DNA of 64,000 nucleotides from Arenimonas oryziterrae DSM 21050 = YC6267 (GTDB taxonomy: Bacteria; Pseudomonadota; Gammaproteobacteria; Xanthomonadales; Xanthomonadaceae): positions 806,001 through 870,000 of the forward strand of contig NZ_ATVD01000001.1 of assembly GCF_000420545.1 (NCBI RefSeq), given 5' to 3'. Position 1 is the first letter of the stretch. Each line of letters begins with the position of its first letter. The position numbers and the translations under genes were made by a program. Below, piece after piece: positions 37,764 through 39,560 of the stretch. The notes under the pieces are model-generated. The model saw nothing but the letters and a program-made list of their open reading frames with translations. It was not told the origin of the DNA and ran no database searches.

Positions 37764-39080
37764 ATGGCAGCTTCAGCTTCTACTGTTTACAGCGACCACC
37801 TTGCGACAATCAAGGCGCGGACCGACCTGGCGCTGCAAAAATGCGGTTTTGATCACATGATCATTACTTCCGGGATCGCCAAGTACCGATTCCTGGACGA
37901 TATGCATTATCCGTTCAAGGCCAATCCGCATTTCCTGCACTGGCTGCCGCTGACCCAGCATCCGTACAGCTGGATCGCGTACACGCCGGGCAAAAAGCCC
38001 GTGCTCGCCTACTACCAGCCTGACGACTACTGGCATGTGCCGCCCACGGCGCCGGAAGGCGACTGGGTGGAACATTTCGACATACGCATCCTGTCCGAGC
38101 CGGCGGACGCCGTACACCACCTGCCGAGCACCGGCCGGTCCGCCATCATTGGCGAAGACGACTCCGGCCTGCCGGGTTTCGCGCCCAACAATCCCGAGTC
38201 GGTGCTCAACGCGCTGCATTTCCAGCGCGCTTACAAAACGCCGTACGAACTCTCGCGCCAGCGTCTGGCGCAACGCCGCGCGGTGCCGGGACATCTGGCC
38301 GCGCGCGCCGGTTTCCTCGCGGGACAGTCGGAAGCGCAGATCCACGCCGCCTACCTGGCCGCTACCGGTCACACCGATCCGGACCTGCCCTACAACAACA
38401 TCATCGGCCTCAACGAAAACGGCGCGACGCTGCACTACCAGTACAAAAACACGCAGGCACCGGCGCAGCACCGCGCGCTGCTGATCGATGCCGGCGCGGA
38501 AGTCGACGGCTACGCGTCCGACATCACGCGCACCTGGGGCAATGGCGACGCGCACTTCCAGGCCCTGATCGATGCGGTCGAACGCGAACAACTGGCGCTG
38601 TGCGCGAACGTGCGCGCCGGCACGGACTATCGCGATCTGCACCTGGACTGCCATCTGCGCCTGGGCCGCGTGCTCAAGGCGCTGGACATCGTCGACATGG
38701 ACCCGGGCGCGATGCTGGAAACCGGCGTGACCTCGACCTTCTTCCCGCACGGCCTGGGCCATCCGATCGGCCTGCAGGTGCACGACATCGCCGGCTACAC
38801 CGACGAAAACGGCCAGCTCATCCCGCGCCCCGCCGGCCATCCGTTCCTGCGCATGACGCGCACGCTGGCGCCCGGCATGGTGGTCACGATCGAGCCGGGC
38901 CTGTATTTCATCCCGACGCTGCTGGCCAAACTCAAAGAAAGCCAACACGGCCACGCGGTGAACTGGAAAAACGTCGAGCACCTCGCGAAATTCGGCGGCG
39001 TGCGCATCGAAGACGAAGTGCACTGCACCGACGGCGCTCCGGAAAACCTCACCCGCGATGCGTTTGCCGAATTGAGCTGA
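37764..39080 (+). CDS. pepQ: Xaa-Pro dipeptidase PepQ
   Basis: A 438-residue cytoplasmic prolidase of the M24B family, close to the usual PepQ length. Metal ligands are visible in LLIDAGAEVDGYASDITRTW (two Asp), FPHGLGHPIGLQVHD (His), VTIEPGLYF (Glu) and FGGVRIEDEVH (Glu). It should cleave X-Pro dipeptides and, as in other PepQ enzymes, may hydrolyse organophosphates. It is divergent from the CHASE-GGDEF-EAL gene, with 63 bp between the starts. Confidence 0.96.
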   Translation: MAASASTVYSDHLATIKARTDLALQKCGFDHMIITSGIAKYRFLDDMHYPFKANPHFLHWLPLTQHPYSWIAYTPGKKPVLAYYQPDDYWHVPPTAPEGDWVEHFDIRILSEPADAVHHLPSTGRSAIIGEDDSGLPGFAPNNPESVLNALHFQRAYKTPYELSRQRLAQRRAVPGHLAARAGFLAGQSEAQIHAAYLAATGHTDPDLPYNNIIGLNENGATLHYQYKNTQAPAQHRALLIDAGAEVDGYASDITRTWGNGDAHFQALIDAVEREQLALCANVRAGTDYRDLHLDCHLRLGRVLKALDIVDMDPGAMLETGVTSTFFPHGLGHPIGLQVHDIAGYTDENGQLIPRPAGHPFLRMTRTLAPGMVVTIEPGLYFIPTLLAKLKESQHGHAVNWKNVEHLAKFGGVRIEDEVHCTDGAPENLTRDAFAELS

Positions 39081-39107: not shown

Positions 39108-39223
39108 GACCCGAGGGGCTAGCCGCGACGACCGCTCGGTCGCAAGCGCCATCCGTGGCCAGCTCACGAGCGGCCATGCCGGCCATCCTGGCCGGCATTT
39201 CGTCGCGGCTAGCCCCTCGGGTC
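39108..39223. repeat. Structured inverted-repeat element, copy A
   Basis: A perfect 24-bp inverted repeat (39108-39131 with 39200-39223) encloses two further hairpins that fill nearly the whole loop: 39132-39138 with 39167-39173, and 39176-39185 with 39189-39198. The folded form would be a three-way junction with almost no unpaired bases. The inner core at 39133-39172 is homologous to the core of copy B in reverse orientation. It lies in a non-coding gap between pepQ and valS. Confidence 0.85.
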
Positions 39224-39295
39224 ACCACTGCTCGAAGCAAGTTTCGCGAGAGTCAGAAGCGACAAGCTCTTCGTTCACCCTTCCAATCTGCTCGA

Positions 39296-39427
39296 GCGTC
39301 GGCGACCGGCGGGGGCATCGTGGGTGGAGTGAAGGCCATGGATGGCCGTAACGGTCGCTCGTGCGCTGGCCAGGATGGCGCTCGCGCCCGAGCGACCACC
39401 GACGATGCCCCCGCCGGTCGCCGACGC
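39296..39427. repeat. Structured inverted-repeat element, copy B
   Basis: A perfect 26-bp inverted repeat (39296-39321 with 39402-39427) encloses a 5-bp hairpin (39334-39338 with 39343-39347) and a 9-bp hairpin (39353-39361 with 39389-39397). Read on the minus strand, its core (39356-39394) matches copy A's core at 36 of 40 positions, with three substitutions and one indel. The outer arms of A and B are not alike. The last ~130 bp of the gap (39428-39560) are more AT-rich near 39475-39500 and probably hold the valS promoter, though no clear -35/-10 pair is seen. Confidence 0.85.
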
Positions 39428-39560
39428 GTGCGCCTCAGCCCAGATTTCCATCCGCATCGCGCCCAAAGCCCTGTTTTGATAGGATTTGGGTATCAATTCG
39501 ACCCGACAGCCGCCCGGCCCTGCGCCGGGCGTGCCGTCTTTGCCCTTTGCAGTGAGCCCC

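Follow-up and report, generated by a model that had tools for sequence, protein, structure and literature searches.

A family of dispersed, usually paired three-way-junction repeats with GGA loops in Arenimonas and other Lysobacterales, and its probable relation to RsmA/CsrA

The window analysed here (the whole stretch of 64 kb) contains two copies, A and B, of a structured repeat. They are placed between a gene ending at 39080 on the 5' side, which from reading its sequence we take to be an M24-type peptidase gene, and a gene on the other side that on the same basis is presumably valS. The features are as follows, with the strand of the GGA motifs and, in brackets, the basis of each call.

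39108..39223, minus: copy A, three-way-junction element (fold z −10.95 on minus)
39108..39131, minus: copy A outer stem, arm one, 24 bp, perfect (inverted-repeat check)
39132..39173, minus: copy A GGA hairpin 2, loop ACGGAT, GGA at 39154-39152 (fold and detector)
39176..39198, minus: copy A GGA hairpin 1, GCCGGCC-AGGAT-GGCCGGC, GGA at 39188-39186 (fold and detector)
39200..39223, minus: copy A outer stem, arm two, 24 bp (inverted-repeat check)
39224..39295, no strand: spacer of 72 bp separating copies A and B (sequence)
39296..39427, plus: copy B, three-way-junction element (fold z −10.07)
39296..39321, plus: copy B outer stem, arm one, 26 bp, perfect (inverted-repeat check)
39334..39347, plus: copy B GGA hairpin 1, GGCC-AUGGAU-GGCC, GGA at 39340-39342 (fold and detector)
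39353..39397, plus: copy B GGA hairpin 2, loop CAGGAUG, GGA at 39373-39375 (fold and detector)
39402..39427, plus: copy B outer stem, arm two (inverted-repeat check)

A first-pass annotation of this DNA had described perfect outer stems of 24 bp in A and 26 bp in B, unrelated in sequence, enclosing cores that match at 36 of 40 positions within a three-way-junction fold, and this description holds. Both stems are perfect at those lengths; aligning core A (39133-39172) to core B (39356-39394) in reverse complement yields 36 identical positions over 40 columns with one gap, and the score of 31 compares with a mean of −1.2 and a maximum of 9 among 500 shuffles. For the outer arms, 419 of 500 shuffles score at least as high as the real alignment. 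The three-way junction was found in all four strands of the two copies, at −93 to −110 kcal/mol and z of −10.1 to −11.8, with none of 200 shuffles as stable. Our detector, which looks for a long outer stem enclosing at least two hairpins with GGA loops, returned four results in the window: copies A and B, with arms of 27 (including one mispair) and 26 respectively, and two weak candidates with arms of 11. It reads the loops as CAGGATG and CACGGATG in copy A, and as CATGGATG and CAGGATG in copy B. A scan of the A-B region for sigma-70-like promoters found none, which says little because shuffled sequences likewise give about zero. Just past copy B, on the minus strand at 39428-39460, a GAAATCT-like stretch resembles the GAAATCTCGC ends of repeats of about 285 bp, so that the unit may reach past B.

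The first-pass annotation had also suggested searching this genome and its relatives for further copies, with covariance models among other means, and looking for compensatory change in the outer stems. Further copies exist. At C3:204077-204163 of the same genome (G000), a DNA search turned up a third copy, C, which again has a long stem of its own. The loop pattern GCCATCCNTGGC has 13 matches in this genome and none in the reversed control; six of the 13 form three inverted pairs, 148 bp apart, and these three loci are repeats of about 280-300 bp with inverted ends and two three-way junctions each. Three more matches (L054-L056) were dismissed by eye as apparent chance matches in coding sequence. 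The same-genus genome G026 has one pair whose cores are nearly identical and whose stems differ yet remain paired. When a 70-base core was searched at the DNA level over 149 genomes, 11 (this one included) had a match; those in G003, G012, G041, G057, G065, G100, G115, G119 and G135 were folded and judged by eye to be chance matches in coding sequence, leaving this genome and G026 alone. A pattern from the B/C core had no match in a contig collection from which this genome is possibly absent, and a plasmid search for the family found none.

Because a single alignment of both subtypes misaligned the hairpins, two covariance models were built, R1 trained on A, B, C and the G026 pair, and R2 on the three other pairs of the G000 genome. 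Copies A and B score 99.3 and 91.7 bits with R1, of which each is a training row; copy B, which was not used to train R2, matches that model weakly (22.2 bits, E 0.0015). Both models were searched against 149 genomes, including this one, with 29 candidates scored per genome, so that copy numbers are lower bounds. On this scale R1 had matches at E<=0.1 in 40 genomes and R2 in 49, and at E<=1e-5, with hits above that value not counted, 15 genomes matched R1 and 24 further ones matched R2, or 39 of 149. All but the training genomes G000 and G026, that is 37 of the 39, lie outside the training sets, and the 39 span five families of the order (Arenimonas itself belongs to the Lysobacteraceae, Lysobacterales). 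As judged from these sequence matches, A and B together form an inverted pair belonging to a dispersed non-coding repeat family of Arenimonas and other Lysobacterales.

The architecture of the units is clearest in Arenimonas terrae (G004), which has at least 19 of them. Of its 20 R1 matches we read 19, leaving out a weak one (E 0.04), and all 19 loci are discrete units of about 540 bp. Taking as unit the sequence that three or more BLAST pieces of other copies have in common, the edges run from −298 to −425 through +153 to +227 relative to the R1 core, with a gap in 2 of the 19. Every row has a second type of three-way junction on the left, in opposite orientation, so that units of this species normally take the outward-pointing form of A-B. 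Copies L159, L160 and L164 have an insert that adds two CAGGA hairpins, and whole units can form large palindromes. In other genera, several elements were partnerless within the stretch examined with the detector. Units are usually inverted pairs of three-way junctions.

Compensatory change is present in both junction types. In the alignment of the 19 A. terrae copies (A4), the outer stem has changed on both sides at 16 of its 19 pairs while 97.7% of its cells are paired; these cell counts are of sequences, not of independent events, and leave out the last seven columns of rows L159, L160 and L164. Over the whole A4 structure, 20 pairs are changed on both sides, against 11.5+-1.6 in shuffles, and the covariation score is 0.335, against 0.119+-0.012 in shuffled and at most 0.124 in slid alignments. 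The number of pair types is in weak excess (35 against 30.2+-2.1, with 14 of 500 shuffles reaching 35), and helix 3 is weaker, at 72.2% paired. In the alignment of the left, or partner, type (A5, 19 rows of which 18 are distinct), 12 pairs are changed on both sides, against 5.7+-1.2 and with none of 500 shuffles reaching this number; its pair-type count does not exceed the shuffles (201 of 500). The outer stem appears to require pairing rather than a particular sequence, and the family offers an unusually clean natural data set for stem covariation within single genomes.

The mispairs that do occur are informative, since a G.U wobble becomes an A.C mismatch when the complementary strand is read. 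Among the 1952 outer-stem pairs of 96 detected elements (arms of at least 12, distinct arms), read on the GGA strand, there are 46 G.U, 2 A.C and 25 other mispairs. A looser count extending past the arms gives 113, 16 and 143, respectively. The lean toward G.U persists when the elements are clustered to 71 representatives (33 G.U, 2 A.C) where, taken genome by genome, 18 of 27 lean to G.U, one to A.C and eight to neither. It persists as well in the 74 elements left after removing A. terrae and the left type (34 G.U, 2 A.C), the latter excluded because the conserved G.U at its foot, present in 14 of 18 rows, is inherited. As a control, 433 other inverted repeats from these loci were scored on their plus strand and have 84 G.U and 91 A.C. 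The A4 inner stems alone, with six of each, show no asymmetry.

A possible objection to selection on structure is that the perfect, variable stems are the product of DNA-level correction between palindrome arms (template switching), the cores being alike through recent descent only. Near-perfect outer stems, changes that are mostly two-sided with few wobble intermediates, large palindromic units and hairpins that are cleanly missing at some sites would all fit this proposal. Correction is strand-symmetric, however, whereas the mispairs of the GGA strand are not and those of the other inverted repeats are, and some inner-stem pairs covary while the loops stay GGA. The strand asymmetry argues against arm correction as sole cause, which we regard as very unlikely; given the low share of G.U among the outer pairs, such correction may nevertheless contribute. 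The preference for G.U and rarity of A.C on the GGA strand show that the selected object is this strand folded on itself, and we are highly confident that the repeats make up a structured single-strand element family. The folded GGA strand is most simply taken to be selected as RNA, which is the simplest reading, not the sole one, as folded single-stranded DNA could in principle give the same bias. Selection on structure, or a structured RNA, was among the ideas of the first-pass annotation, and it gains support from the further copies, from the stem covariation with its shuffle and slide controls and from the strand-specific G.U excess.

We turn to the sites that can be compared between species. 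In the gap between the putative peptidase gene and valS, read by eye in all 27 same-genus genomes, units or unit ends are found in G000, G004, G019, G009 and G002, a single junction in G003, G018 and G022, a remnant in G010, a different palindrome in G023 and G026, and nothing in G025, G015, G016, G005 and G017; in the remaining 11 either the neighbouring gene is not the same or the sequence upstream is too short. The junctions at this site in G003, G004, G018 and G022 have kept their pairing with clearly different stems, except that G003 has a single unpaired base and G022 a single C.A mispair. The second site shared between species lies beside a gene that we take to be fba; here five of 26 genomes have pairs (G003, G004, G018, G019 and G020, identified partly by eye), and G022 retains a remnant. 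Other REP-looking palindromes, GTGGGAGGGACTTCAGTCCCG and GTAGGAGCGCCTTCAGGCGCG, with no unit, were seen at this second site in G026 (L253), G015 (L259) and G021 (L258). At L187 (G003), L193 (G010) and L257 (G022) one junction is cleanly absent, with flanks or stem foot kept, as if a hairpin had been lost by slippage.

Some units enclose passengers. At the valS site, G019, G009 and G002 have differing ORFs without a Pfam match inside the end or ends seen, only one end being present in G009 and the second core being lost in G002; the spacer corresponding to that between A and B thus holds passenger ORFs in some units of other species. These loci, L127 (G019:C129:600-3600), L235 (G009) and L216 (G002), differ in the passenger ORFs beside or between their outward-facing elements, which gives the site the look of a cassette for exchanging cargo. 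In G080 (L128, L129), an HNH gene (PF01844) and a gene for an addiction-module antidote (PF21716) lie within pairs whose elements are about 550-600 bp apart. Scanning seven passenger ORFs found no transposase.

These observations bear on the mobile, non-autonomous family that the first-pass annotation had also entertained. Discrete boundaries, dispersed copies and empty sites are all observed, so the dispersal stands, through the 19 A. terrae units and the presence or absence at two shared sites; no transposase was found in the units read, and target-site duplications were not clear by eye at the sites inspected. The associated RAYT transposase that it had envisaged finds no support in this genome, where neither of the two Y1_Tnp genes is flanked by elements, and a RAYT/REP origin was dropped for this genome. 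The GT(A/G)G head occurs in 13 of 100 elements and in 13 of 100 random windows. One Y1_Tnp (RAYT-like) gene adjoins repeats GCATCGCGGTCAGGCCCGCTCCCAC that apparently form a separate REP family of G000 (L065, G000:C2:709847-710134). At L064 (G000:C4:211716-212045) lie two adjacent, similar Y1_Tnp-type reading frames sharing the end sequence ACAGGGGTCAGAGTACCTTTTCTAAG.

The elements could be no more than the ends of non-autonomous transposons, with the GGA strand recognised as folded single-stranded DNA by an HUH, Y1-type or other transposase, as in REP-RAYT systems, and with no RNA function. Such a proposal accommodates the discrete, dispersed units, some with inverted ends, the variable occupancy of shared sites and the pairs that flank passenger ORFs, and folded single-stranded DNA would yield the same bias of G.T over A.C. 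It does less well with the lack of a transposase in the passenger ORFs examined, with the two unflanked Y1_Tnp genes and missing head motif, and with the pairing that four species largely retain at one site although their stems differ, something that transposition by itself would not preserve in resident copies; it also leaves the RsmA-site form of the loops unexplained. We consider it unlikely. The three ideas put forward at first, selection on structure, a mobile family and a structured RNA, are as a whole supported in part, and they are compatible with one another rather than alternatives.

The GGA loops, overlooked in the first-pass annotation, point to RsmA/CsrA as judged by their sequence. 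In a scan blind to GGA (outer arms of 16 bp or more enclosing two or more hairpins), 93 of 117 structures carried at least two GGA loops on the same strand, a share that does not come from a random sample because most loci had been fetched for model matches; about half of the remaining 24 resemble, by eye, decayed members. In a set of 100 elements with 203 GGA loops, a tally conditioned by the choice of elements through their GGA loops, 110 loops have the form C-ANGGAN-G and 84 the form CAGGANG, together 194 of 203, a few being CAGGAGG. PMC7652899 gives CAGGA(U/A/C)G for CsrB sites, to which CAGGAGG does not conform, RUACARGGAUGU as the CsrA SELEX consensus and an ANGGAN hexaloop for the RsmE site. 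According to the same paper, a CsrA dimer bridges two sites 10-63 nt apart (PMC7652899); all 103 distances between neighbouring GGA motifs in the 100 elements fall within this range (16-59, median 29). Most CsrA SELEX hairpins are described there as having stems of four pairs or fewer (PMC7652899), and many of the element hairpins have longer stems, which could weaken binding of RsmA/CsrA. This genome has one CsrA/RsmA gene, of the usual sequence (MLILTRRVGETLMIG...VHREEIFQRL), which retains leucine 4 and the HREE arginine. From this loop form and spacing, RsmA/CsrA is quite probably the ligand of the elements, and this is the best-supported function.

The explanation that we favour overall, and hold to be probable, is that the repeats are transposon-like elements whose GGA strand would act as RNA, probably docking RsmA, as a sponge or a cis tag. 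The GGA strand would be transcribed either from within the unit or by read-through of neighbouring genes. Each element would dock one RsmA dimer, with a hairpin for each subunit. With its two elements facing outwards, a unit would expose one GGA element whichever way it is transcribed. The outer stem may keep the hairpins separate and insulated, and a difference in stem sequence between the halves of a unit would favour local folding over one long hairpin. Many copies together could titrate RsmA, forming a distributed sponge, and each copy may also mark or protect its host transcript.

The elements might alternatively serve in cis alone, as bidirectional, RsmA-dependent tags for the stability, termination or translation of flanking transcripts, with no meaningful sponge effect. 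Most copies do sit between called genes, and an inverted pair presents a GGA element to transcription from either side; RsmA is reported to stabilise the hrpG 5' UTR in Xanthomonas (PMC3937308). A tag of this kind is harder to reconcile with sites that are gained and lost between species and with the lack of any preferred orientation or position toward neighbouring genes, as assessed from crude ORF calls, by which 14 of 60 elements fall inside spurious or real ORFs. A role purely in cis is a tentative possibility, and a sponge rather than a purely cis tag is to us a nearly even call, falling just short of probable; the two roles are inseparable from sequence alone.

If the probable docking of RsmA is taken together with the dispersal of the units, a wider and more doubtful proposal is that a self-spreading family makes RsmA/CsrA control genome-wide and tuned by copy number, with tens of mobile units each exposing a dual RsmA-docking RNA in either direction. 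Were this true, gain and loss of copies would reset free RsmA and tag new genes, and some units would also carry passenger genes between two RsmA-docking RNAs. A spreading repeat with paired RsmA-type sites would put the set-point of a global regulator in direct connection with mobile DNA.

The open literature, subscription papers being outside its scope, yielded no description of this repeat family. On the elements of the window region and 21 loci, no Rfam family reached its gathering score. The best match to the CsrB/RsmZ clan on an element was TwoAYGGAY, to copy A on the GGA strand (19.9 bits against a gathering score of 43); TwoAYGGAY (RF01731) and rsmX are both assigned in Rfam to clan CL00106, which we take to be the CsrB/RsmX/Y/Z clan. 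Matches by E-value to miRNA families (MIR918 and others) were set aside as long-stem artefacts, far below gathering scores.

For the order Lysobacterales, the only dedicated RsmA-sequestering RNA found in the open literature was RsmU of Xanthomonas campestris. Its report describes three or four GGA motifs and processing from the 3' UTR of one mRNA at one locus, and its authors consider that the RNA may be limited to Xanthomonas (PMC7694677). Compared by this description, RsmU resembles the elements in its bacterial order and its GGA motifs, and differs from them in being a single-locus 3' UTR product. The REP/BIME repeats of RAYTs are, like the elements, dispersed intergenic palindromes in alternating orientation whose palindromy is kept despite sequence change (PMC2817692); unlike them, the elements have no GT(A/G)G head and no linked rayt gene in G000, and form a three-way junction of about 100 nt instead of a single hairpin. 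TwoAYGGAY is not known to have a long, variable outer stem or to come as inverted repeat units. It is a predicted CsrA ligand and, like the elements, has two hairpins, in its case with AYGGAY loops (PMC4333381). CsrB/CsrC and RsmX/Y/Z share with the elements GGA hairpin loops in CAGGANG/ANGGAN forms and, probably, the ligand RsmA/CsrA. These sRNAs are encoded by few dedicated genes with many sites each, whereas the elements have two sites as a rule, set in a three-way junction with a long hypervariable stem, and occur as many dispersed copies, usually in inverted pairs.
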